From Polyangiaceae bacterium (GTDB taxonomy: Bacteria > Myxococcota_A > Polyangia > Polyangiales > Polyangiaceae): a DNA stretch of 35,391 nt. The notes under the pieces were generated by a model. The model was not told the origin of the DNA, did not search any database, and saw nothing but the letters and a program-made list of their open reading frames with translations. The translations under genes were made by a program, and so were the position numbers. Shown here piece by piece: positions 19,817 through 35,391 of this stretch. Location of the stretch: assembly GCA_025453595.1 (NCBI GenBank), contig JALOQB010000019.1:1-35391 (forward strand). Reading direction: 5' to 3'. The stretch's first letter is position 1. Every line of letters begins with the position of its first letter.

Positions 19817-19900
19817 ATTTCCATAGAGGACATAGAATGTCTCACTGCACGGATGCGGAGGGCGAGGGCGGAGCTAGGTTCCAGTGACGAGGTGCTCGCC

Positions 19901-20833
19901 ATGCTCGCCACGTCCCTGAAGTCCACAGCGCTCCCGACCCCTGCTCCTTCCCCCCGCAAGGCCCCGGCCCTGCGGCCGCAGCGCGTCGTCCTGTACGGGG
20001 TGGAGGGCGTGGGGAAGTCGACCTTCGCCTCGCAGGCACCGAGCCCGGTCTTTCTGTGCGCCGAAGACGGGATCGCACACCTGGAGGTGGACAGGTTCCC
20101 GACGGCAAAGAGCTGGGTGGATGTGCTGGAGGCGATCCGGGTTCTGACCCACGAGGAGCACAGCTACGAGACGCTGGTGATCGACACGCTGGACTGGCTT
20201 GAACCCCTCTGCAACGAGCATGTCTGCAAGCTGGCGGGGGTGACGAGCATCGACGCGATCGCCTACGGGAAGGGCTATGCGGAGGTGGTGCAGCAGTGGC
20301 GTGGCCTTCTGGGGGCCCTGGAGATGCTGGTGCGGACCCGGAAGATGAACGTGCTGCTGCTGGCCCACGCCGCGGTGCGCCACGCGGAAGGGCCCCGGGG
20401 GAACTTTGATCGGTACCAGCTCAAGCTGTACGAGCGGGTGGCGGATCTGATCCGGCTGTGGTGCGACGCCCTGCTGTTTGCTCGCAAGGAGCGGGTGACC
20501 ATCGAGCTGGCGCGGCTGCCCCGGAAACCGCCGGAGGCGCGGATGCTGCACACGGAGGAGAACGGCCCGTGGGAGGCGAGCAACCGGCTGGCCTTGCCGC
20601 CGGTGCTACCGATGGACTGGAGCGATTTTTCCGCGGCAGCGCGGTCGTTCAAGCCGGCGGACGCGGCAAAGATCCGGGCGGATCTGACGGCGCTCATCCC
20701 GTACCTCCAGGAGGCGGTGCGGGCCGCCCAGGTGATGAGGGACTGGGCGGGGGATGATCCCGCCAGATTGTTCCAGCTGCTGGACCGGGTGCGCAGCAAG
20801 CTGACGCTGGAGGCGGCCGGGTTGGAGAGCTGA
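19901..20833 (+). CDS. AAA_24/Sak4-like RecA-fold ATPase
   Basis: 310 residues from the ATG at 19901, preferred over the ATG at 19853 because GAGG lies 8 nt upstream. The Walker A motif is GVEGVGKS (33-40) in VVLYGVEGVGKSTFASQAP. The Walker B strand TLVIDTLDWLEPL ends in Asp95, and IAYGKGYAEVVQQWRGLL and NVLLLAHAAVR follow in the order found in phage Sak4 annealing-type ATPases and the AAA_24 family. Phage members help single-strand annealing or recombination; chromosomal copies are of unknown role. No other phage gene is nearby. It lies 72 nt upstream of the MoxR gene on the same strand and may be part of that operon, with its own promoter possibly in the AT-rich gap 19817-19900. Confidence 0.75.
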   Translation: MLATSLKSTALPTPAPSPRKAPALRPQRVVLYGVEGVGKSTFASQAPSPVFLCAEDGIAHLEVDRFPTAKSWVDVLEAIRVLTHEEHSYETLVIDTLDWLEPLCNEHVCKLAGVTSIDAIAYGKGYAEVVQQWRGLLGALEMLVRTRKMNVLLLAHAAVRHAEGPRGNFDRYQLKLYERVADLIRLWCDALLFARKERVTIELARLPRKPPEARMLHTEENGPWEASNRLALPPVLPMDWSDFSAAARSFKPADAAKIRADLTALIPYLQEAVRAAQVMRDWAGDDPARLFQLLDRVRSKLTLEAAGLES

Positions 20834-20905: not shown

Positions 20906-22033
20906 TTGGCTGACGCCCTTCGATTGCCCGCAGAACAGCGGTACCCCGCCGAGCTAGCTGCCCTTCAGGCCAACGACAAGGACCCGAAGCCGCCCGGCTG
21001 GCGCCTGTCGCCCCGCATGGTCGAGATGTTCATCCTCGGTAGCCAGGGCAAGGAGCTCTCTTACCAGGATGGCAAGGAGAGCCGCTCGATCGTCATCAGC
21101 AAGAAATTTTATGGCGACGACATCCTGGTGCAGCGCGCCATCGTGACGATGGCCAGCGACCGGGGGCTGCTGCTGGTGGGCGAGCCCGGCACCGCGAAGA
21201 GCTGGCTCTCCGAGCACCTCTCGGCGGCGGTGTGCGGCAACAGCTTGCTCACGATCCAGGGCAGCGCGGGCATCACCGAGGATCAGATCAAGTACTCGTG
21301 GAACTACGCCCTGCTCCTCGCCAAGGGCCCCTGCCCCGAGGCGCTGGTGCCAGGGCCGCTCTACATCGGCATGCGCGACGGCATGCTGGTTCGCTTCGAG
21401 GAGATCACCCGCACCCCCCATGAGGTCCAGGACACCCTGCTCTCCAGCATGAGCGACAAGGTGATGATCGTGCCCGAGCTGGGCGACGCAGGTGTCGTGC
21501 TGGCGCAGCGTGGCTTCAACATCATCGGCACCGCCAACACCCGCGACCGCGGCGTCAACGAGATGTCCAGCGCCCTCAAGCGCCGCTTCAACTTCGAGAC
21601 GGTGATGCCCGTGGAAGATCTCAACGAGGAGATCAACATCGTCCGTAACCAGGTGACCTCGATGCTCGCGGGCACCCCCGCCGACAAGACCAGGATCGGG
21701 GACCAGGTGCTGGAGCTGCTGGTCACCACCTTCCACGAGATCCGCCAGGGTCACACCCTCGACGGCGTGAAGATCGACCGGGGCTCCGGTGTGATGTCCA
21801 CCGCCGAGGCGGTCAGCGTCGGCCTCCATTCGGCCCTCTTTGCCAGCTTCTTCGGCAAGGGCACCGTCGACCCCGAGCACGTCGTCATCAACATGGCCGG
21901 CGCCGTCGTCAAGGAGAACAAGGACGACATCAAGATCCTCCAGAACTACTGGGAGATCGCCGTCAAGCCCCGGGCCAACAAGGAAATTGGCCTCTGGAAG
22001 GCTTACTACAAGGCCCGCAACTTCCTGAAGTGA
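20906..22033 (+). CDS. MoxR-type AAA+ ATPase
   Basis: 375 residues from TTG 20906, with GGAG 7 nt upstream. Walker A is GEPGTAKS (92-99), Walker B LVRFEEI (Glu165-Glu166, where many relatives have Asp-Glu), sensor 1 lies in GFNIIGTANTRDRGVNEM, and the arginine finger in SSALKRRF. The GLLLVGEPGTAKSWLSEHL and NTRDRGVNEMSSALKRRFNFE segments are typical of the MoxR branch. MoxR ATPases form rings and act as chaperones that remodel or activate partners, usually with a VWA-domain protein encoded close by (RavA-ViaA, NorQ-NorD, CbbQ-CbbO). Here the VWA partner is two genes downstream. The next gene starts 10 nt after the stop. Confidence 0.9.
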   Translation: MADALRLPAEQRYPAELAALQANDKDPKPPGWRLSPRMVEMFILGSQGKELSYQDGKESRSIVISKKFYGDDILVQRAIVTMASDRGLLLVGEPGTAKSWLSEHLSAAVCGNSLLTIQGSAGITEDQIKYSWNYALLLAKGPCPEALVPGPLYIGMRDGMLVRFEEITRTPHEVQDTLLSSMSDKVMIVPELGDAGVVLAQRGFNIIGTANTRDRGVNEMSSALKRRFNFETVMPVEDLNEEINIVRNQVTSMLAGTPADKTRIGDQVLELLVTTFHEIRQGHTLDGVKIDRGSGVMSTAEAVSVGLHSALFASFFGKGTVDPEHVVINMAGAVVKENKDDIKILQNYWEIAVKPRANKEIGLWKAYYKARNFLK

Positions 22034-22043
22034 GCCGAGGCCC

Positions 22044-24860
22044 ATGCCCCGCAAGAAGGCCCCTTCCCCGCCCCAGGCCCCCGATCCGACCTCGCCGGCA
22101 GACCCTGGCGCGATCGACCCCCAGGCTGCCACCCCGGAGCCGCCCCCCGCGCCGCCCGCGAGCCCGGTGGATGACACCATCGCCCCCACGGAAACAGCGG
22201 CCACTGCCGCGGCGGTAGACCCTTCCGAAGAGCCTACTGTCCCGGAGAAAACGGCCAGGAAGCCCAGGGCGCGGAAGAAAAAGGAAGCCCCTGCGGAGGC
22301 GTCTCCCACCGCGGAAGGGCCCACCCCCGAGGGCGGGCCCAGCGAGGCCGCGGCGCCCGCAGAGGTCGCCGCCGAGGCCCCCGCTGGAGACGCGGAGGCG
22401 CCCAGGAAGAAGGCGCCTCGCAAGGCAAAGAAAGGGCCTGTTGACCCGGAGAGCCTCGACATCCCTGGCCTCGTCGAGCACATCTTGCTGGACGAGCGGG
22501 TCGTTTATTTTGGGGTCAAACATTTCAGCCCGGCCTGCGCGTTCCATGTGAGAGAGCTGATCCGGAGGGAGCGCCCGGTGGCGGTGCTGATCGAGGGCCC
22601 GGAGGACGCGATGGGCCTGATCCAGTACATGGTGCACGAGGACACGCGGCCCCCGTTCACGATCTTCTCGTCGTACGTGGACAAGGACAACCAGTTCGGG
22701 CTCAACGGCAAGCTGAGCCCGGACGAGAACATCCCGGCGCGGTACCGGTCCTGGTGGCCGTTCACCGAGTACGCGCCGGAGTACGCGGCGATGAAGGCGG
22801 CGCAGGAGGTGGGGGCGCTCACGCGGTTCATCGACGCGCCCCTGCTGGCGACCATCCCGTACCATCACGTCCCGCGGCGGGAGCACACCCGCATGGTGGA
22901 CGACCGCCACCTGGCGGAGAACCGTTACTTCGAGGCGCTCCAGCGCAGGCAGCGGCGGCGGTCCTTCGAGGAATTCTGGGAGGCCAATTTCGAGGTCCTC
23001 GGCCAGCACCTCGACACCGAGGGGTTCCAGCGGCTGGTGCTCACCTTCGCCGCCTGCGCGCGGCGTTCCGGCGGCGGAGAGGCGAGCCTGGAGGCCGACG
23101 GGACGCTGCTGCGAGAGGCCCTGATGAGGCACCATATCGACGCCGTCCTGAAGGAGAAGCCCGAGGGGAAGATCGTCGTGGTGACCGGCGCCTTTCACTC
23201 GGTCGCCCTGCCCTTCACCAGGGGGCAAAGGCCCAAGCTGAAGGCGGACAAGAACCTCGAGACCTTGCTCACCGGACACTCGTTCCAGGCGCTGGCGGGG
23301 CTCTACCATCTCAACCGGCTGCCGGCCTACGGCCAGACGGTCTGGGAGGCCATCCAGGCGGGCTCACCGGAGCCCTTCAACGCGGCCGCCATCCAGCTGC
23401 TGATCGAGGTGATGCGCAAGGCACGCGACTACAAGGAGGGGGTCAGCACCGCCGACAGCGTGGGGGCCTACCAGGTCGCCCGGAACCTCGCGGTGCTGCG
23501 GCGCAACGCGCAGATCACCCTGGATGATCTCCAGGATGCGATCCAGATGACCTACATCAAGGGGGATCACCGGATGCGGGGCGCCGAGGTGCAGCGGGCG
23601 ACCAGCGACATCCTGGTGGGCAACCGGCTGGGTCGGGTGACGCCGCAGGCCGGCCAGGCGCCGCTGATCCGTGACTATTATGCGCTCTGCAAGCAGCACA
23701 AGCTGGACATCACCGGCGTGAAGAAGGACGTCCGCTGCGACATCGGGAAGCAGGAGGAGCACCGCTTCAAGTCGGCCTTCCTGCACCAGTGCAGCTTCCT
23801 CGAGATCCCGATGTTCTCTTCCCTCGACGGCGGGGGCTGGAACGCGCCGGCGCGCCACTACAAGGGGCCAAACATCGCCACCGGCGAGGGCATGGATCTG
23901 ATCACCGAGACCTGGGGGGTCCAGTGGGGGGTCAAGGTAGATGATCGGCTCCTGGAGCTATCGGACCGCGGCGCCTCGGTGGCCCACGCGGCGGGAGGCC
24001 TGCTGCGGGAGCGGGCGCTGCGGGTCAAGGGGCAGGCCAAGGAGTCCACGGCCCTGCTGCTCCAGAGCGCGCAGATGATGCTCCTCGATGTCTTCCAGGA
24101 TCTTCTCGGCAGCGTCGAGGATGCGATCGTCGAGGATTCGCTGTTCGGCAGCCTGGTCAAGGCGCTCAACAACTTCGTCGTCCTGCTCAGCTACCGGGAC
24201 AGCATCGCCCCGCAGCTCCAGGACCGGGTGCTGCGGAGCGTGGTCGCGCTGTTCAACAAATCGTGCCTGCTGCTGCCGGGGATCCGGAACACCAAGCCCG
24301 AGCACCTGAAGGAGACCATGGAAGATCTCCAGACGCTGGTGCGCATCACCCTGACCTTCGAGGCGCAGCGGCTGGATCGGCAGCTTCTGGCGGAGAAGCT
24401 GGCGGAGACCGTCGCGGATCAGGAGGGCTCACCGGCGATCCGGGGCATGGGGTACGGCGTGCTCTTCTCCTTCGGCGCCACGAGCGAGCGCGCGGTCTCT
24501 CGCGAGCTGAACGGCTACCTGATGGGGACGGCGGAGCGTGTGTTGCAGGCCGGTGCCTTCCTGGACGGGCTCTTCTTGAGCTCCAAGAGCATCGTGATGA
24601 GCAGCCCGCGGCTTCTCCAGGCGATCAGCGAGATCATCCGCAACCTGGACTGGGCGACCTTCAAGATCCTGCTGCCGGATCTGCGCCGCGCGTTCACCCA
24701 GTTCATCCCGACCGAGATCGACCGGATCTCCGCCAAGGTGAGCGAGGACATGGGGCTGAGCCAGGCCCCCTCGCGCGATGAGCCGATCCCCGACGCCCTC
24801 GCGCGGCTCGGGGGGGAGGCCGACGACAAGGTGACGAAGGTGCTGGCCGAGTGGTGCTGA
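22044..24860 (+). CDS. DUF5682 family protein with TIKI/EreA/ChaN-like N-terminal domain
   Basis: 938 residues. The first 135 or so are a Pro/Ala/Glu/Lys-rich, probably disordered tail. The DUF5682 region follows: GVKHFSPACAFHVREL (His160), VAVLIEGPEDA (Glu184), a RYRSWWPFTEYAPEYAAM block, FIDAPL, and VVVTGAFHSVALP (His385). The spaced EG and GAxH motifs recall the TIKI/TraB/EreA/ChaN superfamily of hydrolase-like domains, so catalysis is possible but not proven. The remaining 500 residues are helical (AIQLLIEVMRKARDY, LRRNAQITLDDLQDAIQM, and repeats rich in Leu) with no family I can name. In many bacteria DUF5682 proteins sit between MoxR and VWA genes, as here. Likely a large scaffold or effector remodelled by the ATPase. 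Cytoplasmic; no signal or membrane span. Confidence 0.8.
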   Translation: MPRKKAPSPPQAPDPTSPADPGAIDPQAATPEPPPAPPASPVDDTIAPTETAATAAAVDPSEEPTVPEKTARKPRARKKKEAPAEASPTAEGPTPEGGPSEAAAPAEVAAEAPAGDAEAPRKKAPRKAKKGPVDPESLDIPGLVEHILLDERVVYFGVKHFSPACAFHVRELIRRERPVAVLIEGPEDAMGLIQYMVHEDTRPPFTIFSSYVDKDNQFGLNGKLSPDENIPARYRSWWPFTEYAPEYAAMKAAQEVGALTRFIDAPLLATIPYHHVPRREHTRMVDDRHLAENRYFEALQRRQRRRSFEEFWEANFEVLGQHLDTEGFQRLVLTFAACARRSGGGEASLEADGTLLREALMRHHIDAVLKEKPEGKIVVVTGAFHSVALPFTRGQRPKLKADKNLETLLTGHSFQALAGLYHLNRLPAYGQTVWEAIQAGSPEPFNAAAIQLLIEVMRKARDYKEGVSTADSVGAYQVARNLAVLRRNAQITLDDLQDAIQMTYIKGDHRMRGAEVQRATSDILVGNRLGRVTPQAGQAPLIRDYYALCKQHKLDITGVKKDVRCDIGKQEEHRFKSAFLHQCSFLEIPMFSSLDGGGWNAPARHYKGPNIATGEGMDLITETWGVQWGVKVDDRLLELSDRGASVAHAAGGLLRERALRVKGQAKESTALLLQSAQMMLLDVFQDLLGSVEDAIVEDSLFGSLVKALNNFVVLLSYRDSIAPQLQDRVLRSVVALFNKSCLLLPGIRNTKPEHLKETMEDLQTLVRITLTFEAQRLDRQLLAEKLAETVADQEGSPAIRGMGYGVLFSFGATSERAVSRELNGYLMGTAERVLQAGAFLDGLFLSSKSIVMSSPRLLQAISEIIRNLDWATFKILLPDLRRAFTQFIPTEIDRISAKVSEDMGLSQAPSRDEPIPDALARLGGEADDKVTKVLAEWC

Positions 24861-24879: not shown

Positions 24880-26094
24880 ATGAGCGAACAACCAGAGACC
24901 GAGAGCGACGAGCAACCGCTGGACCAGGATCAGGTCGAGCAAGCGATGCGGTGGCGCCTGATCCTGGGGCGATTCTCCGACGATCAGCTGGGGTTTGATC
25001 AGCTACGGGGGCGGGCGGCGTCCGGGGCCCTGGGCGGGGCGCAGGGCCTCGGGGGTCTCTTCGCGGAGGCTCGCCAGATGGATATCCCCCTCGAGTTTGT
25101 GTACGACCGGGAGTACGCCAACCGGGCCCACCGCCAGAGCGGAGGAGGCGACTCCAAGGGGCTCTCGGTGCCTGCCTGGTTGAACCGGGTCCGTGACCTC
25201 TTCCCCCAGGAAGCGGTGCACGTCATGGAGAACGACGCGCTCAGCCGCTACGGTCTCACCGAGCTGGTCACTGACCCGGAGATCCTGCGGCGCGCCCAGC
25301 CTTCGGAGGAGCTGCTCAAGGCCATCCTGCAGTTCAAGCACATGATGCGGGGGCCGGTGCTGGAGGCAGCCCGGGACGTGGTCAAGGCCGTGGTCGCCCA
25401 GCTCGCCGACAAGATCAAGAGCGAGTGTTACTCGGCGCTCCACGGGGTATTTGACCCGGAGCAGCGGCCCCCCAAGCCGACCTTCCGCAACACCGACTGG
25501 AAGCGCACCATCCAGCGCAACCTGAAGAATTACGATCGAGACTCGGACCGGCTGATCATCGACCGGGTTTTCTACAAGCACCGCCAGAAGCACAAGAGCC
25601 CCTGGCACATCATCGTGGCCGTCGATCAGTCCGGCAGCATGACCGACAGCCTGATTCATAGCTCGGTCATGGCGGCGATCTTCGCCAGCCTCCCGTCCGT
25701 CGAGGTGAGCCTGGTGCTCTGGGATACGCGCTACGTCGATGTGTCCCAGCACGCCACCGATCCGCTGGAGGTGCTGATGACCTGCCAGCTCGGCGGCGGC
25801 ACCGACATGTGGCCCGCGATGCAGTACTGCGCTGGCCTGGTGCGAGATCCGCAGCGCACCATCTTCGTGCTGCTCAGCGACTGGTACATCTTCGGCAACC
25901 AGGACAGGTGCCTGGCCCTCGCCCAGAAGCTTCGAGAAGACGGTGTGATGGGGGTCGGCCTCTCGGCCCTCGATAGCGAGTGCAAGCCGGTCTACGACGA
26001 GTCCTTCGCCAAGCGGCTGGCGGGGTGTGGCTGGTTCGTCGCGGCCTTGACCCCCAAGAAGCTCGCCGAGCACATCGGCAAGATCGTCGCCTGA
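24880..26094 (+). CDS. VWA domain protein, partner of MoxR ATPase
   Basis: 404 residues. The N-terminal half is helical (EQAMRWRLILGRFSDDQLG, FKHMMRGPVLEAARDVVKAVVAQLADKI). The von Willebrand factor A domain spans about 240-404, with a complete metal-ion-dependent adhesion site: DQSGS (Asp249, Ser251, Ser253), Thr308 in GGGTDMW, and Asp334 in LLSDWY. VWA proteins of this type bind a MoxR ring and carry the specificity for the target. The gene follows DUF5682 by 19 nt. No signal peptide, so cytoplasmic. The intact metal site argues for a functional pair with the MoxR protein. Confidence 0.88.
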   Translation: MSEQPETESDEQPLDQDQVEQAMRWRLILGRFSDDQLGFDQLRGRAASGALGGAQGLGGLFAEARQMDIPLEFVYDREYANRAHRQSGGGDSKGLSVPAWLNRVRDLFPQEAVHVMENDALSRYGLTELVTDPEILRRAQPSEELLKAILQFKHMMRGPVLEAARDVVKAVVAQLADKIKSECYSALHGVFDPEQRPPKPTFRNTDWKRTIQRNLKNYDRDSDRLIIDRVFYKHRQKHKSPWHIIVAVDQSGSMTDSLIHSSVMAAIFASLPSVEVSLVLWDTRYVDVSQHATDPLEVLMTCQLGGGTDMWPAMQYCAGLVRDPQRTIFVLLSDWYIFGNQDRCLALAQKLREDGVMGVGLSALDSECKPVYDESFAKRLAGCGWFVAALTPKKLAEHIGKIVA

Positions 26095-26106: not shown

Positions 26107-27351
26107 ATGGCCGCCAAGCGCTCCACCAAACCCACCGAACCTGCCGCCGAAGCCCCGCCCGCCGACGGCAATGCCCCCGCCGAGGGGGCCGAGCTGAACA
26201 AGGCCGAACGCGCCAAGCTCGAGCGCATGGGCGAGGCCTTCGAGAAGATCGATCGCCTGCTCTTTCGCCTGGCGCAGCAGGGCCTCCAGCGCATGAGCCG
26301 CTCCAGCAGCGACGAGCTCAAGGCCCTGGAACAGCTGGCCCACAACGCCGCGCTGATCACCGTCGAGCGCCAGATCGAGACGCTGGCGACCCACGTGCAA
26401 CGCTACCTCGACAAGGATCCGCTGTTCCGCATCGAGGACTACATGGCCACCATCAACAAGGTGTGGCTGCTGACCTCCATGGCCCGCAAGCGCCACGCCG
26501 CCGGGCAGACGCCGGATCAGATGATCGACGTCATCGGCGAGGCACGCCGCAGCTACGTCGACCTGGAGGCGCCCCTGGTGGTCCAGCCCCTGGGCGCCAG
26601 CGGCTGGGTCTCCGACACCGATTTCGTCGGCATCACGGTCTACTTCTTCGTCAAGGACCGCCCTGGCGTCATCTACCAGGCCTCCAACTGCAAGCCCTGC
26701 GCTTACTTCGGCCGGGACCCCCAGCGCCTGCTGCATGAGCACATCAGCGAGTACGTCCCTTACTCGATCTTTGACATGGCCCACGGCGCCTACGAATTTC
26801 GCCACGCCAAGGTCTCCTCTGACGGGCGCATGAGCCTCCACAAGGGGATGTTTGTGGTCAAAGCACCTTACCAGGGGGCCCGGGCTTACCAGAGCATCGC
26901 GGTGCGCAACTGGGTCGAGCTGGTCGATCGCCTGCGCAGCAGCGAGCTGCATCCGGTCGGCGGCGCCGAGGCGGCCCTGGTCTACGTCGAGCCCTCGCTC
27001 TACGGCGATCTCAAGATCGACGACAAGAACGCCAGGGCCACCGTCGAGCTGATGGACGACAAGGCCTCGGTGATGCACGTCGAGGTGCCCCTGCGCGCCG
27101 AGAACAACCTGCTCATCAACAACCTCGAACACCTGCTGGGCAAGCCCAGGGCCGGGGCCAAGAAGAAGGGGCCGCCGCTGGGGGCACCCAGCGCCCTCTT
27201 CGGCCGCGCCACGGTCAGCGAGGGGCGGCTCAAGCTCTTCCCCATGACCGCTCTCTACGACGGCGCGCTGGTCTACCGCCACGATCGCCGCGTCAACGAG
27301 CTGCATCTCACCCTCGAAGATGCCTCCAGCTACTCCCTCAGCGAGGGTTGA
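26107..27351 (+). CDS. Uncharacterised protein of the MoxR-DUF5682-VWA operon (414 aa)
   Basis: I do not recognise a family. 414 residues: a Lys/Pro/Ala-rich tail (1-33), then a helical region (about 34-150; KAERAKLERMGEAFEKIDRL, ELKALEQLAHNAALITVERQ), then a mixed alpha/beta part with YFFVKDRPGVIYQASNCKPCAYFGRDPQRLLHEH, VVKAPYQGARAYQSIAVRNW and RAENNLLINNLEHLLGKP, and a Lys/Gly-rich loop near 350. Only two cysteines (CKPC), which could be half of a metal site or a redox pair. No signal peptide or membrane span. It starts 13 nt after the VWA gene and stops 2 nt before the next gene's ATG, so it is surely cotranscribed. It may bind substrate or the 698-residue protein encoded next. Confidence 0.75.
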   Translation: MAAKRSTKPTEPAAEAPPADGNAPAEGAELNKAERAKLERMGEAFEKIDRLLFRLAQQGLQRMSRSSSDELKALEQLAHNAALITVERQIETLATHVQRYLDKDPLFRIEDYMATINKVWLLTSMARKRHAAGQTPDQMIDVIGEARRSYVDLEAPLVVQPLGASGWVSDTDFVGITVYFFVKDRPGVIYQASNCKPCAYFGRDPQRLLHEHISEYVPYSIFDMAHGAYEFRHAKVSSDGRMSLHKGMFVVKAPYQGARAYQSIAVRNWVELVDRLRSSELHPVGGAEAALVYVEPSLYGDLKIDDKNARATVELMDDKASVMHVEVPLRAENNLLINNLEHLLGKPRAGAKKKGPPLGAPSALFGRATVSEGRLKLFPMTALYDGALVYRHDRRVNELHLTLEDASSYSLSEG

Positions 27352-27352
27352 T

Positions 27353-29449
27353 ATGGCCGAACCTCTCCTTGCGTCCCTTGAAGCCAGCCTCCAGGCCCAC
27401 ACCGCCGAGGCCGACTCCCTCCGCGAGCTGGCCCGCACCCAGCCCCCCTCCGAGACCGACATGGCCCAGGCCCTCGCCTCCATGCGCCTCGTCGATCTCT
27501 TCCTCTCTGACCTCAACGAGGCCCTGCGCCAGCTCTTCGTCGCTGGCCTCTCCTTCCCCGACCCCGAGCTCCCCTCCGCTCTCCACGAGCTCCAGCAGCG
27601 CGCCCGCGCCCTCCGCCTGCCCACCGCCTTCGAGCGCCTCGGCAAGCTCCACGCATGGCTCCGCGCCACCCTCGCCGAGCCCGACCTCGACGCCCGCGCT
27701 CCCCTCGCTTCCAGCGCCTGGAACGAGGCCCAGCGCCTCCTCGCCTGGGCACGACTCTACCGCTCTGAACACGACCTCCGCGTCGTCCAGGCTCGCATGG
27801 CCGCCGAGGCCCAGGGCCTCAAGATCGAGGCCGAACCCACCTTCAAGACCCGCTCCCTCTCCCTCTGGCCCGCAGGCATCGAGCTCGCCCCCAGCGGCAA
27901 GCTCCTGGTATATGGAATTTCCACAGATACGGGCGCCCCGGTGGTGCTGATCGATCACCTGGCCGAATACACCCGCGAGGCTCCCTTCGCGGGCCGCGCC
28001 ATCAGCCGGATGTTCCAGGAGGCCATCGAGCTCCCCCGCCTGCTCACCTCGATCGTCCGCCTCGAGGAGCACCCGTACACCGAGAAAGACGGCGTGATCT
28101 CGTTCCGCCCGGCCTTCCGGACCACCCCCAGGATGCTCCCTCCGGGCGATCGCTTCCAGCCCCCCCGCCTGCCCGTGCTGAACGTCGCTCTGGACGCCCA
28201 GATCCCCACGGGCCCCTTCGAGATCGAGGTCGCCCTCTCCTGGTCTGGAGGGCGCATCCACCTGGGCTCGCTCCGCGGCGAGATCCCGATCCGGATGACG
28301 CCCTTGCTCCGCTTCAACCTCGCCAAGCTGCTGCTCCGCGAGGGGCTCCGCCGCGATGAGTTCCGGGCCTGTCTCCTGGCCAAGGACGAAGAATTCGAGC
28401 TGCTTCACCTGATCACCCCTCTCGACGGACGGGCGTACCCGACCGTCGATCCAACCGCCTTTGGCGTGGCCCGGGAGGTGCTGCAGGCACGGGCGCGGCG
28501 GGTCCAGATCCCCGGAGAGCGCGCCGTCGAGCTCTTTCTTCAGGTGGCTGCTCACGCCCTGGGCCACGGCGATGCTGCCCAGGTTGCCCAGCTGCGAGGC
28601 CACATCCTGGAGGCGACCCCCACGGGGATCGAAGAGCGCTACCGCCTTGCCCTCGCCCGTCATCTGCTGGGCCTGCACCCGGACCCCAACAAGGAGCGCC
28701 CCTTCCTCCAGGACGCCCTCGCGCTCCTCCTTCGCCCCCAGGGCTCTCCGGTCGATCTCTCCCGCCTCAGCCGTGTCCTCGGCCTGTCGCTGGCCCACAC
28801 CTCCGCCAGCGACCTGCGCCACATCGACGGGGCCTTCGCGTACCGTGTCCTCTGGCTCCTGCTCCAGTGCAACCTGGTCGATGAATTTCGACCGCTCCTC
28901 GAGCAGCTGTTCCAGGGCTCCTACCAGGGAGAACTCAAGGACCCGACGGTCGGCGATGTCTGCGCCCGGGCCCTCCTCCTCGCTCTCCTGGCCCAGCCCG
29001 CCGTGGGTCTCACCAACCCGACGGAAGACAGCGACGAGGACGAGGACGACGATGAGGAGGACGAGGACGACGATGGGGACGACGGCGAGGAGAGCGCCCT
29101 GGATCGAGGGCTCGCTGGCTGGGTCAAGGCCCGGGAATTTCTCCAGGCACATCTGGCCGACCTGGCCCCTCGCAAATCCACCACGAAGAGCAAGCCGCTG
29201 CCCGAGCTGATCGAGCTTCTCCAGCTCGGCGACACCCTCGCGTTTCTCGCCGGAGAGAACCGGCTCGGACCGACGGTGGCAGCGCTGCAGATCTCCCCGG
29301 AGAAGCTGCGCCATGCCTGCGTCGAGGCGTTGCTTGCCTGGTGCTCATCCACCGAGAGCGAGCGCCCCCGGTGGCAGGACGCCACCGGCGCAGCGGACGC
29401 CATGCTGGTGATCGCCGCCTCGGGGCTGTCGCCTTTCTTCCTCTCATGA
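27353..29449 (+). CDS. Uncharacterised large protein with an acidic run (698 aa)
   Basis: Start at the ATG 27353-27355, 2 nt after the previous stop; the frame is open further upstream inside that gene. No family is recognised. Residues 1-200 are helical and Leu/Ala/Arg-rich. The middle (about 200-330) is beta-rich, with LVYGISTDTGAPVVLIDHLAEY, DGVISFRPAFRTTPRMLPPG and a SWSGGRIHLGSLRGEI segment. A helical repeat-like part follows (about 380-550). An almost purely Asp/Glu run occupies about 557-583, then a helical C-terminus rich in Leu. The acidic run could mimic nucleic acid, or bind basic ribosomal proteins or metal. Position in the operon, between the 414-residue protein and the eRF1-like protein, is the only functional clue. 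Confidence 0.75.
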   Translation: MAEPLLASLEASLQAHTAEADSLRELARTQPPSETDMAQALASMRLVDLFLSDLNEALRQLFVAGLSFPDPELPSALHELQQRARALRLPTAFERLGKLHAWLRATLAEPDLDARAPLASSAWNEAQRLLAWARLYRSEHDLRVVQARMAAEAQGLKIEAEPTFKTRSLSLWPAGIELAPSGKLLVYGISTDTGAPVVLIDHLAEYTREAPFAGRAISRMFQEAIELPRLLTSIVRLEEHPYTEKDGVISFRPAFRTTPRMLPPGDRFQPPRLPVLNVALDAQIPTGPFEIEVALSWSGGRIHLGSLRGEIPIRMTPLLRFNLAKLLLREGLRRDEFRACLLAKDEEFELLHLITPLDGRAYPTVDPTAFGVAREVLQARARRVQIPGERAVELFLQVAAHALGHGDAAQVAQLRGHILEATPTGIEERYRLALARHLLGLHPDPNKERPFLQDALALLLRPQGSPVDLSRLSRVLGLSLAHTSASDLRHIDGAFAYRVLWLLLQCNLVDEFRPLLEQLFQGSYQGELKDPTVGDVCARALLLALLAQPAVGLTNPTEDSDEDEDDDEEDEDDDGDDGEESALDRGLAGWVKAREFLQAHLADLAPRKSTTKSKPLPELIELLQLGDTLAFLAGENRLGPTVAALQISPEKLRHACVEALLAWCSSTESERPRWQDATGAADAMLVIAASGLSPFFLS

Positions 29450-29459
29450 GAGACGAGCC

Positions 29460-30542
29460 ATGACCTTCTACGACCGACTGCGAAAGCTGCTGGAATGGCG
29501 GGGCGCGCCCGAGCACCAGGTGCTGAGCCTCTACCTGGACATCTCTGGCAGCGGCGCGGCCCAGGCCCTCGCCGCCGCCGAATCCCTGTGGGAAGACGCC
29601 AGGGCCACCCTTGAAGATACCGGTGCCGAGGGGCTCATCGAGCAGATCCTCCACGATCTTCCCGGGGAGATCGCCGCGGCCCAGGCGGAAGGGTACGACG
29701 GCCTGGCGCTCTTCGCCTGCCGCAAGCCATCCTTGCACGAGACCTTTCGCCTGCGTTTTGCCCTTGAGAATCAGCTTGAAGTGGGGCACGAGCCGCAGAC
29801 CTGGCAGCTCGCTTATTACGAGGAGGAATACGAGCAAGCGGTCGCGCTGAGCCTGGGCGAGCACCCCGAGGTGATCGAGCTCCACGTGGGTGATGTGGCT
29901 GCCCATCACCCTGTTCACCCCACCCACGGCCGCACCCCGGAGCAGGAAGCAAGCGCGGTCCTGCACCGCATCCTCCATGATAGCCCCCGCGCCCACCTGA
30001 TCTTGCTCGGGGACCCGGATCGCCGCGCCTCCCTGCTGCGGCGTCTCGACCCCGCCCTCCAGTCCCGGCTGATCGGCGCCGTGGATACGGCCCTCGTGTC
30101 CTCCGATCCAGCCTTTCTCCGCACCATCCACCGGGTGCAGCAGGCCTACGAGCGCCGCTCCGAGGACGAAGGCGTCCGGGCGCTCCTCGATGCTCGCTCC
30201 AACCCCATCAGCGCCGGCGCCGTCGCCGCAGGCCCTCTCGCCGTCATCGAGGCCATCAACCGTGCGACCATCCAGAAGCTCTATATCCTCCAGGGCTTCG
30301 AGGGGCGCGGGTGGATCTGCGATGCCTGCGATCGCCTCGGTCTGCCCCCAACGCCACCGGTCTGCACCGCCTGCGGCGCCTCGGTTGCCCGTGCTGAACT
30401 GAAACACCATCTCATCCAGCAAGCTCGCGCCTGCGGTGCCGAGATCGAGACCATCCCCGAGAACCCAGCCCTCCTCGAACTGGGCGGCGTCGCAGCCTCC
30501 TGCCTGGCCCCGTCCGGTATCGCCTCGATCCCCCGGGGGTGA
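29460..30542 (+). CDS. eRF1/Vms1-like protein (bacterial archaeo-eukaryotic release factor family) with zinc ribbon
   Basis: 360 residues. The N-terminus HQVLSLYLDI is the opening seen in bacterial release-factor-like (baeRF) proteins. The middle region (about 145-235) keeps the aeRF1 order: a polar loop, HLILLGDPDRRASLLRRL, then LIGAVDTAL. The catalytic GGQ is missing; the loop reads HGRTPEQEAS. The last 130 residues look like the L7Ae/pelota-type C-terminal domain of archaeal aRF1: GPLAVIEAINRATIQKLYIL, a zinc ribbon CxxC (287, 290) / CxxC (302, 305), then HLIQQARACGAEIETIPENPALLELGGVAA. Such proteins bind ribosomes. Without GGQ, peptide release as in eRF1 is not expected; tRNA cleavage or ribosome binding are options. 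It closes the MoxR-DUF5682-VWA operon, 10 nt after the previous gene. Confidence 0.8.
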   Translation: MTFYDRLRKLLEWRGAPEHQVLSLYLDISGSGAAQALAAAESLWEDARATLEDTGAEGLIEQILHDLPGEIAAAQAEGYDGLALFACRKPSLHETFRLRFALENQLEVGHEPQTWQLAYYEEEYEQAVALSLGEHPEVIELHVGDVAAHHPVHPTHGRTPEQEASAVLHRILHDSPRAHLILLGDPDRRASLLRRLDPALQSRLIGAVDTALVSSDPAFLRTIHRVQQAYERRSEDEGVRALLDARSNPISAGAVAAGPLAVIEAINRATIQKLYILQGFEGRGWICDACDRLGLPPTPPVCTACGASVARAELKHHLIQQARACGAEIETIPENPALLELGGVAASCLAPSGIASIPRG

Positions 30543-30806: not shown

Positions 30807-32831
30807 ATGCGATCACCATGCAATGCTTCCTCTCTTGTTCTTCTGACCCTGACCCTCCTGGCCTGCGCAGGAGAAGACCTGGAGACCGGTGGTGAGACGC
30901 CAGCAGGCAGCGGCGGCCAGAGCCCGGTAACGGGGGGTTCCGGGGGCTCTGCAGGCCAGCCGGAAGCCGGCCAGGGCGGTGCCGGGTTGGGAGGCATGGC
31001 CGGGGCCGGCGGCGAGGCCGGAGGGAACGGAGGGGAGGCTGGTATCTCCGGAAGCTCCGGACAGGCGGGGGCCGCCGGTTCGCCGTCAGGCACGCCCTGC
31101 GACGAGCCAGGCACCTTTGCCTGCATCAACAACACGCTGCTGCTCTGCTCGCCGGACACCAAGACCCTGAAAGTCCTCGAGACCTGCTCGGACGACGGTC
31201 AGTGCGACGAGGCTTCGGGCAAGTGCCTGGAGTGCAAGCCTGGCGTGATCGTGGGTTGCCTGGACGACAAGAACCAGAGCATGTGCGACCCGGACGGGAC
31301 CCCGAGCAAGGCCGTTCCATGCCCGGAAGAGACCCCCTTCTGCAACAAGGGGAAGTGCGTGATCTGCAACGAGGACAGCGACTGTCCGGCCCTCGATCCG
31401 GAGGATGATTGCAACGTCCCGGCTTGCTCCCAGAACGCCTGCGTCGGCAAGCCGCTCTCCCTCGGGTCGAAGCCTGACTCGCAGGAGGCCTGCACCCTGC
31501 GCCTCTGCGATGGCAACGGGGGCTCCACCGTCACCCCGCTCGAGGCAGGGGTCGCCTGCGAGGGCGAGGGCGTCTGCAACGGCAAGGGTGGCTGCGGCGA
31601 ATGCATCCCGGGGGCCCGCGAGTGCACCGACGGGAGCTCCTTCCGGGTCTGCGACGAGAACGGAAAATGGCAGAAGTCCGAGCTCTGCTCCGACAAGCCC
31701 GCCTGCGACGCCGGCACCTGCCAGGGGGTCGTGCAGATGCAGTCCAGCGGCAAGCTCTCCTGTGCGTTGCTTGAGAACAAGCGCGTACGCTGCTGGGGTG
31801 AGCTGATCAACGAGGTGCCTGTCAGGGAATTTGCCACAGGGTTCCAGGATATCGTCCAGATTGCCGTCCATGACAGCTACCTCTGTGGGCTGGATTCCTC
31901 GGGGGATATGCGGTGTTCCGGCTTCAACCTCGGTGGTCAGTTCGGGACCGGGTCGAAGGGGGGTATCAACAATCCACAGAAGGAACCGCAAAAGGTCAAC
32001 ACCAGCCTGAAGTTCTCCTACATTTCCGCGGGGAAAGACTTCGTCTGCGCGGTCGCCAAGCAAGACCAAGAGCTCTACTGCTGGGGCAACAATCAGCTTG
32101 GGCAACTGGGCTTTGTACCTCAAAAAGAAGCTGACAAGGCAGCTTTCTCTCCGCGCAAGGTTGGCATCCTGGTCTTGGATGGGCCTGAGAAAATCAAGCT
32201 CGCCACCGGCGACGCCCACGCTTGCGTGATCACCGACAAGCTTCGGTGCTGGGGTGACAACAGCGCCTCCAAGCTGAGCAGCAGCGCGCCGCTCATCGCA
32301 CCGATCACGGTCATTGAGCCCACCGGAACGGTCACAGCATCCGCCAAGTTCGTCGCGCTCTCGTCTGCCAACACCCTGCTTGTCAAGTTCAATACCGGCC
32401 CAAACTTCAAAGAGATCAATCACAAGTTCGAGAGTCGTGGACTGGACCCCATGTTCAACGGTGTTGGGCCGCAAGATGTTCTTTCCGAAGCCAATGCGGC
32501 CGACGTCAAGATGCTCGCCACATCCCCCCAGGCCAGGATCGTCATCACCGCCAGTGGAAACATGATCGCCCAGGGCGACAAGCTCTCCGGCATTCTTGGC
32601 AACGGAGAACAGGTCGCCGGGAAAGGGACCAAGCTCCATGCCGATGCCATCCGCGATGGAGTCTCGCTCTCAGGTACCCATGCCTGCGCCTGGAAGAAGG
32701 GAGGTATGGGCTGGTGCTGGGGTCAAAACCAGAAAGGCCAGGCCATCCCCGGGGGTAATGCGGTTGTCTTGACGCCAACTCCCATCCGGTGGGGGGCAGA
32801 GTACCTGCTCCAGTTACCAGCATCTTGCTGA
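30807..32831 (+). CDS. Glycine-rich, cysteine-rich lipoprotein with RCC1 repeats
   Basis: 674 residues. Lipoprotein signal with lipobox LLAC (Cys20). Residues about 25-95 are a Gly/Ala/Ser-rich linker with SGSSGQAG units. Residues about 95-305 form a cysteine-rich region of repeated CxxG/CxxD blocks like those of other myxobacterial surface lipoproteins. From about 310, RCC1-like repeats appear, with the signature CALLENKRVRCWGE, FVCAVAKQDQELYCWGNNQLGQLG and HACVITDKLRCWGDN. This predicts a beta-propeller outside the cell, probably anchored in the outer membrane. The middle of the propeller is less regular (about 500-620), so some blades may be degenerate. The function is unknown; surface binding or predation-related contact is a guess. 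Two similar lipoproteins follow. Confidence 0.85.
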   Translation: MRSPCNASSLVLLTLTLLACAGEDLETGGETPAGSGGQSPVTGGSGGSAGQPEAGQGGAGLGGMAGAGGEAGGNGGEAGISGSSGQAGAAGSPSGTPCDEPGTFACINNTLLLCSPDTKTLKVLETCSDDGQCDEASGKCLECKPGVIVGCLDDKNQSMCDPDGTPSKAVPCPEETPFCNKGKCVICNEDSDCPALDPEDDCNVPACSQNACVGKPLSLGSKPDSQEACTLRLCDGNGGSTVTPLEAGVACEGEGVCNGKGGCGECIPGARECTDGSSFRVCDENGKWQKSELCSDKPACDAGTCQGVVQMQSSGKLSCALLENKRVRCWGELINEVPVREFATGFQDIVQIAVHDSYLCGLDSSGDMRCSGFNLGGQFGTGSKGGINNPQKEPQKVNTSLKFSYISAGKDFVCAVAKQDQELYCWGNNQLGQLGFVPQKEADKAAFSPRKVGILVLDGPEKIKLATGDAHACVITDKLRCWGDNSASKLSSSAPLIAPITVIEPTGTVTASAKFVALSSANTLLVKFNTGPNFKEINHKFESRGLDPMFNGVGPQDVLSEANAADVKMLATSPQARIVITASGNMIAQGDKLSGILGNGEQVAGKGTKLHADAIRDGVSLSGTHACAWKKGGMGWCWGQNQKGQAIPGGNAVVLTPTPIRWGAEYLLQLPASC

Positions 32832-32890
32832 CACCCCTGCGCTTCTTCAACCCAACAGCTTTTTCCTGACATCACTCCAAGGATTTCCCC

Positions 32891-34468
32891 ATGCGAACCA
32901 CCTCCCTGCTCCTCGGCCTCTCGCTCTTCACCCTTCTCGCCTGTGGTGGCGATGAAATTACCTCTTCTCCTGCAGCCGGTGCTGGCGGTGCGGCGGCGGG
33001 GGCGGCGGGATCCTCCGCTGGTTCCTCCGGCGCTGGACAGGCGGGAGATGCGGGCTCCGCTGGACAGGCGGGCTCCGGTGGTTCCTCTGGAACTTCCGGA
33101 CAAGCTGGTTCTTCTGGAACTTCCGGACAGGCTGGCTCCGCGGGTTCCGCTGGGCAGGGTGGCTGTTCGGCTTCTGACGCCCCTCCTGAGGACGCGCTCC
33201 TGGTCGCAACCGACGGTTCTGACACGGAGGGTGATGGCTCCCCGGCGGCACCGTTTGCCACCCTCTCCCGGGCCCTCAAGGCCACCCTGACCTTCGGCAA
33301 CCGGAAGATCATCCTGGCCGAGGGAAGCTACGCCGGAAGCGTCGTGGCTCCGGCTCTCACCGGGCCCATCACCATCGAGGGCGGCTGGGTGCGCAAGGAC
33401 GGGGCATGGCAACGGGATTGCGAAGCCGATGCCTCCACACGCACCACCCTCACCTCCTCTGAGGAGCGCGCCCCTGTCCTGACGATGCTGGACCTCGCCC
33501 ATGACGTGTCCCTGCGCCTGCTGACGGTGCAGACCAAGGGCCAGGGGCTCTCCGAGAAAGACAAGCCCGGCGAGAGCCTGATCGGGGTGCACCTGAGCAG
33601 CACCGAGAAGATCAACGTGCTGCTCGAGCAGGTGGCCATCGTGGCGGGCAAGGGAGGCGAGGGCGGCCCCGCCTCTGCCGGAGAAAATGCGGACAACAAC
33701 TGCAACGGGGTGAGCGATTGCAGCGACGGGAAAGACGGGGAAAACGGCAAGGACGGTGACCCGCCATCGGAGGGCAGCAGCTTCAACGCAAGCGGGTACG
33801 TGCCATCGAACGGAAACCCCGGCACCAGCGGCTCCCATGGCGCAAACGGCACCAAGGGGGGGGATGCCAAGACTGAAATCTGTGCGAAGTGCACGGGAGA
33901 AAAAGAAGATACCTGTCCGAATACGCTGACTTCCTACACGGAATCGTCCAAGCCTGGGGTCTGCGGGTGCGGAGGGAAGCTCGGAGAAGGAGGAAAGGCA
34001 GGGCAAGCGGGAGGGGCATCCGTGGGCTTGCTGGTCGTGGGTCCCATCGAGATGTCCCTCAACAACACCACCGTGAAGAGCAGCGATGGCGGTGGTGCCT
34101 CCCCGGGTGCTTCCGGTGCGGAAGGCCAGCAGGGCGAGGTCGGAGTTCAGGGAGATGCTAGCGTCACTTGCCCTCTGAAGGCTGGTGATGCTGTTTGCGG
34201 ATGGAGCAGCAGTCAAAGCAAGTGCCTTGTATCCAATGCAACAGATGGGAAGGCCCCTGGAGGAACGGCGGGAGGGATGGGGGGCAAGGGAGGAAAGGGA
34301 GGGAAAGGGAGCGGAGGGGCTGGAGGGCCTTCGATCGCGGTGGTCCAGGTCGCAGGGGCCAAGGTGAAGGTCGATCCCGTCTCTTCCTCTCTCGAGCACG
34401 GCAAGGGCGGACCGGGGGCCGAGGGGGCGCCGGAAGGCACCACCGCCAAGCTCAAGGAATATCCCTGA
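32891..34468 (+). CDS. Glycine-rich lipoprotein with beta-helix-like region and collagen-like Gly-rich segments
   Basis: 525 residues; AAGGA lies about 7 nt before the ATG. Lipobox LLAC (Cys18), then a long Gly/Ser/Ala linker containing 9-residue repeats GSSGTSGQA encoded by near-identical 27-bp units at 33080-33106 and 33107-33133, with a degenerate third unit. The segment VATDGSDTEGDGSPAAPFATLSRALKA is the DUF1565-type opening of right-handed parallel beta-helix proteins, and IILAEGSYAGSV and ITIEGGWV fit its coils. Gly-Lys-Asp and Gly-Xaa-Yaa rich loops (for example around 275-330 and 450-475) interrupt the helix and resemble collagen-like strings. Surface exposure is expected. Function unknown; adhesion is the most natural guess. 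Confidence 0.82.
   Translation: MRTTSLLLGLSLFTLLACGGDEITSSPAAGAGGAAAGAAGSSAGSSGAGQAGDAGSAGQAGSGGSSGTSGQAGSSGTSGQAGSAGSAGQGGCSASDAPPEDALLVATDGSDTEGDGSPAAPFATLSRALKATLTFGNRKIILAEGSYAGSVVAPALTGPITIEGGWVRKDGAWQRDCEADASTRTTLTSSEERAPVLTMLDLAHDVSLRLLTVQTKGQGLSEKDKPGESLIGVHLSSTEKINVLLEQVAIVAGKGGEGGPASAGENADNNCNGVSDCSDGKDGENGKDGDPPSEGSSFNASGYVPSNGNPGTSGSHGANGTKGGDAKTEICAKCTGEKEDTCPNTLTSYTESSKPGVCGCGGKLGEGGKAGQAGGASVGLLVVGPIEMSLNNTTVKSSDGGGASPGASGAEGQQGEVGVQGDASVTCPLKAGDAVCGWSSSQSKCLVSNATDGKAPGGTAGGMGGKGGKGGKGSGGAGGPSIAVVQVAGAKVKVDPVSSSLEHGKGGPGAEGAPEGTTAKLKEYP
33080..33160 (+). repeat. 27-bp tandem repeats inside the lipoprotein linker
   Basis: Three head-to-tail units of 27 bp, in frame, the first two differing at only three bases and coding GSSGTSGQA, the third degenerate. 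The core TGGAACTTCCGGACA recurs in the linker of the partial lipoprotein gene at the right end (about 34834-34880) with small changes. In-frame length variation by slippage is expected. Confidence 0.7.
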
Positions 34469-34680
34469 GGTTACTCATGCCACGTTCTTCTCCGCATCAT
34501 GATGATGCTATGCCCCCCCAAAGGTCAGCGTTCGTAGCAACGGTCTTGCGTCGAATACCGACAAGAGAGACCTCACCCCCTGACCCCCTCTCCCTGAAGG
34601 TAGAGGGGGGAAATCAGCAAAGACATCGGGGGGTTCTCCTCTCCCTGAAGAGAGAGGGGGGGGAGGTTCTGGACACGACC
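34469..34680. repeat. Intergenic spacer with CCCTCTCC-type palindromic repeat (copy 2)
   Basis: The stretch between the second and third lipoprotein genes holds no clear gene. The plus-strand frame of the next gene is open across it, but with no signal peptide or coding character. Positions 34571-34668 carry a relative of the 30577-30680 element: CCTCACCCCCTGACCCCCTC at the left, then TCTCCCTGAAGGTAGAGGGG and CTCTCCCTGAAGAGAGAGGG hairpin arms. The repeat likely acts as a terminator or as a mobile palindromic unit. Confidence 0.65.
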
Positions 34681-35391
34681 GTGGCCTCGGTGGATCCCGT
34701 CCCTGGATCACCTGGACGTGGACGTTTGCTGCTGAGCTGGCTCTGCCTGTGCGTGGTGATGGCGGGGTGCGAGGAGAACTTCAACGATGTTTACCTGGGC
34801 CCCCAGGGGGGCAAGGGGGGGGAGGCAGGATCCGGAACTTCTGGACAGGCTGGCGAGGCGGGGGCCGGAACTTCCGGACAGAGTGGGGAGGCGGGGTCAG
34901 GCGGGGCATCCGGTGAAGGGGGGGCCGGGGGCGCCGCGGGGGAGGCGGGAGGAGGCCAGGGGGGCACAGGCGGGGGTTGCAGCGGGGCGCGGTGCAACGG
35001 GGCGCAGGTGGAGATCTGCGAAGGGGGCGAGTGGGTACCCGGTCCGTTTTGCCAGCTTGGATGCAACGAGGGGGCCTGCGAGAAGGTGGACGAGGTAGCC
35101 GCAGGGGAGGGTCACACCTGCGTCCGGATGTCGAGCGGGAGCGTGCGCTGCTGGGGTGCGAATGGGCAGCAGCAGGTGGGGATCAACAGCCTCGGGGAGC
35201 CGGTGCTGAAGCCGCGGGAGCTGGGCGAGGTGAAGGCCCGGGTGCTCCGGTCCGGGTGGAGGCATAGCTGCCTGATCGATCCGGAGGATCAGGTGCGCTG
35301 CTGGGGGGATGGCTCGCAGGGGCAGCTCGGGGATGGGAGCTCGGGCGCCGCGGTGTCCAAGGCGGTGCCGCAGCTTGTGGCGACGAGCAAG
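34681..35391 (+). CDS. Glycine-rich RCC1-repeat lipoprotein, cut by the window end
   Basis: Partial: open to the last base, 237 codons present, no stop. The GTG at 34681 is the likely start (GGGAGG about 14 nt upstream, rather far); a TTG at 34726 is an alternative. Either gives a hydrophobic signal and a lipobox MAGC (Cys30 from the GTG). A Gly-rich linker with SGTSGQAG repeats follows (about 40-100), then a short cysteine-rich block CNGAQVEICEGGEWV, and RCC1-type repeats HTCVRMSSGSVRCWGANG and HSCLIDPEDQVRCWGDGSQGQLG. It has the same architecture as the gene at 30807 and is likely a paralogue. The rest of the propeller lies beyond the window. Confidence 0.82.
   Translation, partial: MASVDPVPGSPGRGRLLLSWLCLCVVMAGCEENFNDVYLGPQGGKGGEAGSGTSGQAGEAGAGTSGQSGEAGSGGASGEGGAGGAAGEAGGGQGGTGGGCSGARCNGAQVEICEGGEWVPGPFCQLGCNEGACEKVDEVAAGEGHTCVRMSSGSVRCWGANGQQQVGINSLGEPVLKPRELGEVKARVLRSGWRHSCLIDPEDQVRCWGDGSQGQLGDGSSGAAVSKAVPQLVATSK

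Follow-up and report, generated by a model that had tools for sequence, protein, structure and literature searches.

A loop-less, zinc-ribbon aeRF1/Balon-type protein at the end of a MoxR-DUF5682-VWA operon in a Polyangiaceae genome

We analysed a 35,391-nt stretch of a Polyangiaceae genome (the window), in which an open reading frame on the plus strand (29460–30542, ATG start) encodes a protein of 360 amino acids, hereafter the window protein. Its gene closes a series on one strand, MoxR-DUF5682-VWA-X-Y, with small gaps between the genes, and starts 10 bases after the end of Y, which bears out the terminal position in a MoxR-VWA operon given by an earlier note. The genes are as follows:

20906–22033, plus strand: MoxR-type AAA+ ATPase (AAA_5; Pfam, 114.6 bits)
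22044–24860, plus strand: DUF5682 protein (Pfam, 285 bits)
24880–26094, plus strand: VWA (CoxE-like) protein (Pfam VWA_CoxE, 125 bits)
26107–27351, plus strand: protein X, 414 aa, no Pfam family, with a predicted helical bundle and tandem OB-like domains
27353–29449 (longest frame starts at 27320), plus strand: protein Y, about 700 aa, no Pfam family; most of the operons found have a homologue after X
29460–30542, plus strand: loop-less, zinc-ribbon aeRF1/Balon-type protein, 360 aa (Pfam baeRF_family10 below cut-off; AlphaFold model; best Foldseek/VIA match Balon, 8v9j/8v9l)

In several systems, MoxR-VWA pairs work as remodelling chaperones (PMC9976466, PMC3893208, PMC7159879). The window operon resembles the MoxR-vWA ternary systems (eLife 2020, PMC7159879) and the CoxD-CoxE/RavA-ViaA-type pairs in combining an AAA+ MoxR with a CoxE-like VWA partner and further components. 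Its third component, however, is DUF5682, which is unnamed in PMC7159879 and of which we found no mention in the literature searched. The MoxR protein reached 18.9 bits against the bpMoxR profile of the MoxR-vWA beta-propeller ternary type, below the cut-off of 27 bits; it also showed weak local similarity to midasin (PDB, E about 4e-9). Just upstream of it, at 19853–20833, lies an AAA_24 (RecA-like) NTPase gene that is kept in a genome of the same genus (G001) and was not found in the other operons that we fetched. On the other side, 30807–35391 holds a row of lipoprotein-like genes whose repeats are rich in Gly/Ser/Ala; RCC1 repeats are present in the first, and the last is cut by the window end.

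For proteins X and Y, no convincing sequence relatives were found in the PDB, and a search of plasmids gave no X. The model of X (mean pLDDT 84.7) has tandem OB-like domains behind a helical bundle, and matched Teb1/RPA70 in Foldseek (E 2e-4 to 7e-4) and RPA70 in VIA (Z 9.0 over 184 residues). Unrelated models can score nearly as well, so that X can only be suggested as a partner that binds nucleic acids. One X homologue (L117:8380-9534, in G573) reads through one in-frame TAG, which could reflect a broken gene or an error in sequencing. In protein Y, a highly acidic stretch of Asp and Glu (EDSDEDEDDDEEDEDDDGDDGEE) stands out; most of it is absent from the Y homologue in G518, a genome of another family of the phylum.

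The window protein has a homologue of 65% identity in G001, and the pair shows purifying selection, with dN/dS of about 0.16–0.25 (0.256/1.56 by YN00, 0.276/1.12 by NG86) and 178 of the 339 nucleotide differences at third codon positions, from which we conclude that the gene is real. Furthermore, a profile built from ten relatives, with the window protein left out, scored it at 134 bits, while 900 shuffled sequences reached at most about 6 bits; the similarity to the family is therefore far above chance.

An AlphaFold model of the window protein (mean pLDDT 84.1, pTM 0.60) displays the three domains of aeRF1 proteins in their usual order, namely an N domain, an RNase H-fold middle domain and a pelota/L7Ae-like C domain. 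The same order emerged from the independent profile and from Foldseek and VIA matches across residues 1–354, in agreement with the earlier reading of the sequence. Given the pTM, the orientation of the domains in the model is less certain than the domains themselves. The features within the gene are:

29460–29795, plus strand: N-terminal domain of decoding-centre type, residues 1–112, with LSLYLD at residues 22–27 and no NIKS (model, VIA)
29796–30155, plus strand: middle (RNase H-fold) domain, residues 113–232 (model, VIA, Pfam)
29913–29945, plus strand: VHPTHGRTPEQ, residues 152–162, an eight-residue link and helix start that replace the GGQ/lasso loop (model, spacing, profile)
30156–30515, plus strand: C-terminal L7Ae/pelota-like domain, residues 233–352 (model, VIA)
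30312–30380, plus strand: zinc ribbon, residues 285–307 (C287, C290, C302, C305), at the site of the Balon beta-hairpin (sequence, column alignment)

In the N domain, the model places helices at residues 3–11, 32–48 and 56–76 and strands at 21–27, 81–87, 92–98 and 105–109, and residues 1–123 matched the N domain of human eRF1 (2llx; VIA Z 11.0). Residues 120–230 matched the eRF1 middle domain (2hst; Z 9.2), and the C-terminal domain that of human Pelota (5eo3; Z 12.4). The zinc ribbon is indeed retained, as had been proposed, in the form of CDAC (residues 287–290) and CTAC (302–305); each of its four cysteines is at least 90% conserved among 11 relatives. A further motif in the earlier note, VDTAL (residues 208–212), is not a family motif, as the G001 homologue reads SDEPL there. 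Neither GGQ, whose absence had been the starting point of that note, nor NIKS occurs anywhere in the 360 residues.

To place the protein, relatives were gathered from its order, class and phylum and aligned. A PDB search with the single sequence gave chance matches only, and a family profile was needed instead. The profile of the window protein and ten relatives found Balon Msmeg1130 as the best solved chain (E 3.9e-31), then Rv2629, archaeal aRF1 and Pelota. Structure comparison agreed, as both Foldseek (E 6e-19) and VIA (Z 26.2, rmsd 3.6 Å, 327 residues) ranked Balon first, with eRF1/aRF1 (Z 13–17) and Pelota (Z about 9–12) below it. The match to Pfam baeRF_family10, 23.8 bits (E 5.9e-5) over residues 162–227 only, is under the cut-off of 27.1 bits, and Msmeg1130 itself scores 124.6 bits against that family. 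A profile of only the window protein and its G001 homologue scored Msmeg1130 at 3.7 bits, which is not significant, so the link to Balon runs through intermediates. Scanning genome contigs with the single window sequence found nothing, and with the window–G001 alignment the sole match was the Polyangiaceae MAG SKYG56. Phage sequences held no match to the window protein; giant-virus eRF1s were matched in a viral fold search, more weakly than the cellular proteins. No further Balon copy was found in the window genome (G000) or G001, which is weak evidence as the assemblies are 81–84% complete.

We conclude that the window protein belongs, as a divergent member, to the bacterial aeRF1 (baeRF-1) clade described by Burroughs and Aravind (PMC6514570), and that within it Pfam family 10 and hibernation factors of the Balon type are nearest. 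The earlier note had considered it close to archaeal release factors; aRF1 is among the matches, but the closest characterised relative is Balon, which the note had missed. Nor is such a protein unusual for a bacterium, as had been thought, since Balon homologues occur in about 20% of bacteria (PMC10901736) and the baeRF-1 clade is itself bacterial (PMC6514570). Bacterial eRF1 relatives without GGQ are thus an already published kind.

What sets the window protein apart becomes clear from a comparison with the known members. With Balon (P. urativorans Balon, Msmeg1130, Rv2629; PDB 8rd8, 8rdv, 8rdw, 8v9j, 8v9k, 8v9l; PMC10901736) it shares the three aeRF1 domains, a similar length and the lack of GGQ and NIKS. 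Helena-Bueno et al. showed that Balon occupies the ribosomal A site without either motif, as do its mycobacterial homologues, that its lasso loop wraps A2602 and that a beta-hairpin of its C domain touches EF-Tu-GDP; an HP motif and a bL27-trap loop are also characteristic (PMC10901736). In contrast, the window protein has no lasso loop reaching the wall of the peptidyl-transferase centre (PTC), it carries the zinc ribbon at the site of the hairpin, and its gene lies in a MoxR-DUF5682-VWA context, whereas the published contexts of Balon are RaiA or stress operons. It resembles baeRF_family10 (PF18854) in the middle domain, and same-phylum members share its zinc ribbon; many baeRF-1 families have a two-strand insert where the ribbon would sit (PMC6514570). 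Most families of the clade are without the catalytic glutamine and their loop length is unconstrained, while family 10 keeps the glutamine and glutamine-bearing families have a loop of constrained length (PMC6514570); the window protein has neither. Archaeal aRF1 (4af1, 3agk) has the same domain order and the zinc-ribbon insertion in the C domain; unlike it, the window protein lacks GGQ, NIKS and the loop, and identity in structural alignments is 14–17%. Pelota/Dom34 likewise has an inactive aeRF1-superfamily middle domain without GGQ, but its N domain differs.

The catalytic loop is not altered in the window protein but excised. In the model, strand 145–151 is joined to helix 160–174 by only eight residues. 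A profile of ten loop-bearing relatives, from which loop-less proteins, Balon and aRF1 had been left out, aligned in two pieces (profile positions 9–153 to residues 6–149, and 188–367 to residues 163–346); the gap between them amounts to a net 21 residues and removes the catalytic loop and the Arg-rich start of the following helix. Counting the residues between flanking strand positions (V138 and L180 in the window protein) gave a spacing of 41 in the window protein, its G001 homologue and a distant protein of G518, compared with 62–89 in 13 others, comprising the ten relatives, Msmeg1130 (63) and two aRF1s (64 and 66). The earlier note had read HGRTPEQ as the loop and had proposed aligning it with GGQ loops; the sequence is there, at residues 156–162, but it is no degenerate GGQ, as the change is a deletion rather than a substitution and Gln162 sits in the helix. 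The truncated region is also the best conserved of the parts tested between the window and G001 proteins (77% identity).

The three loop-less proteins all have the zinc ligands, and share an invariant T159 and Q162. In the model, T159-x-x-Q162 at the helix start looks like a capping box, which would give the conserved glutamine a structural explanation. In a tree computed with the loop columns left out, the three group together (85/89, not starred) on long branches; the grouping was no longer resolved once two long rows had been removed, and the G518 copy evolves fast (branch length 2.3). Monophyly is thus suggested, and the sequences would be compatible with the loop having been lost either once or two independent times.

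In a sample of 379 genomes covering part of one phylum, a search with X recovered the core operon in 17. Where the operon could be followed past Y, the loop-less gene was present in 2 of 13 cases. One is the window; the other is on contig C551 of G518, where DUF5682 (60% identity), VWA (67%), X (53%) and Y (36%) are followed on one strand, in the window order, by the loop-less protein (23%), whose gene overlaps the end of Y. In the 11 others, ORFs after Y showed no resemblance to it even with permissive scoring, and no convincing copy was found elsewhere in the other operon-bearing genomes tested. G001 has MoxR-DUF5682-VWA-X-Y at 71–93% identity, continues past Y without the gene and has it on a different contig, flanked by genes for a Mur ligase and a protein kinase. 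From this intact operon without the gene we had first favoured an accidental link, a view that G518 overturned, as a second case in so distant a genome makes the link more than local. The operon is present in each of the three genomes that encode a loop-less protein, and genomes with loop-bearing relatives are absent from the operon-bearing set of the same phylum sample. The operon link is thus recurrent but optional.

The observed basis for any interpretation is therefore the predicted three-domain fold, the zinc ligands, the 21-residue deletion, the purifying selection and the recurrent neighbourhood. On balance, we favour as the probable explanation that the window protein is a non-catalytic, Balon-like, tRNA-shaped ribosome-binding factor. 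This takes up the ribosome binder among the earlier suggestions, plausible with Balon as closest relative, although binding itself is inferred from the fold. The N and C domains would hold the protein in the factor-binding A site, from which, without the loop, it could not reach the PTC. It would thereby park, mark or protect ribosomes in a hibernation-like manner without peptide release and, beside MoxR-DUF5682-VWA-X-Y, might be a substrate of the ATPase machine or an optional subunit that faces the ribosome or RNA. What speaks most strongly against ribosome binding is the deletion, together with the loop, of the positively charged helix start, a proposed 23S rRNA contact; A-site binding may have been lost with it. 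The missing lasso loop, the zinc ribbon in place of the EF-Tu-contacting hairpin, the profile link to Balon by way of intermediates, the baeRF_family10 score under the cut-off, the low share of operons with the gene and its place outside the operon in G001 also count against this reading.

A repurposed scaffold, which we hold possible at a lower probability, would not enter the A site at all; the aeRF1 fold and zinc ribbon would work inside the MoxR-DUF5682-VWA-X-Y complex, as an adaptor that binds protein or RNA or as a substrate, and X would contribute the OB-like domains. Besides those predicted domains, the loss of the PTC loop along with the Arg-rich helix start fits such a role, as do the position directly after Y in two distant genomes and the operon in all three genomes with a loop-less protein. 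However, the 11 operons without the gene and the G001 copy outside the operon argue against an obligate subunit, and the N and C domains are kept, with purifying selection across the whole gene. The ribosome-factor and scaffold readings could both hold if the protein acts as a link between the machine and ribosomes. Such a combination, which we regard as rather unlikely in full, would be a Balon-type lineage that shed its whole PTC arm, kept an archaeal-type zinc ribbon and, as an optional subunit, came to direct a MoxR-DUF5682-VWA machine and its OB-domain partner to ribosomes, the ATPase system remodelling, parking or clearing them.

That the gene is instead an ordinary degenerate baeRF gene with no maintained function, at the operon end by chance, is already disfavoured and improbable in our view. 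Its patchy distribution and the fast-evolving G518 copy would fit, but dN/dS is about 0.2, the truncated loop is the best conserved of the regions tested, all three copies keep the zinc ligands and the gene occupies the same place after Y in a distant genome.

An active ribosome-rescue hydrolase or alternative release factor that uses Gln162 of HGRTPEQ is more improbable still. In favour of this are the conservation of Gln162 in the three loop-less proteins, the catalytic glutamine of family 10 (PMC6514570) and same-phylum relatives, missed by the earlier note, whose loop keeps it as GGWSQ (L075, L076), GGWRQ (L041), WSQ (L039) or WTQ (L074). Gln162, however, lies in the first turn of helix 160–174 behind the eight-residue link, and in the column alignment falls after, not with, the catalytic glutamine of the relatives. 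Together with the 21 missing residues, this makes peptide release by the window protein very unlikely as judged from alignment and model, and the earlier view that it is not a peptidyl-tRNA hydrolase stands. Most of these five relatives have a zinc ribbon as in the window protein. Three zinc-ribbon baeRF proteins with a full-length GGWSQ/GGWRQ loop (L075:1480-2565, L076:1210-2313 and L041:946-2091) are, by their sequences, candidates for active aeRF1-type hydrolases in bacteria. In another protein, L077:1447-2703 (G326), the loop is enlarged rather than deleted, with 89 residues between the flanking strands.

Finally, the Vms1/ANKZF1-like tRNA nuclease of the earlier note, or a VLRF-1 member, is the least credible: the superfamily is the same and the loop-bearing L075 scores above cut-off to acVLRF1 (63 bits), but the window protein had no VLRF Pfam match at E 1 or better, lacks the Q-bearing VLRF loop (GxuQ/GGxSQ), keeps a pelota-like C domain and matches Balon best in structure. 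The structure prediction and Foldseek search that the note had proposed as a check thus recovered the aeRF1 middle and C folds, with Balon first.

The departure from Balon lies in the excision of the whole PTC-reaching loop, the retained zinc ribbon and the MoxR-DUF5682-VWA context. The reach of the Balon loop to the wall of the catalytic centre has been used to explain the inert ribosome, and a conserved natural version that lacks it would allow a test of the contacts that hibernation requires. In addition, the operon link in two distant genomes gives a concrete starting point for finding the substrate on which an uncharacterised MoxR-VWA machine acts.
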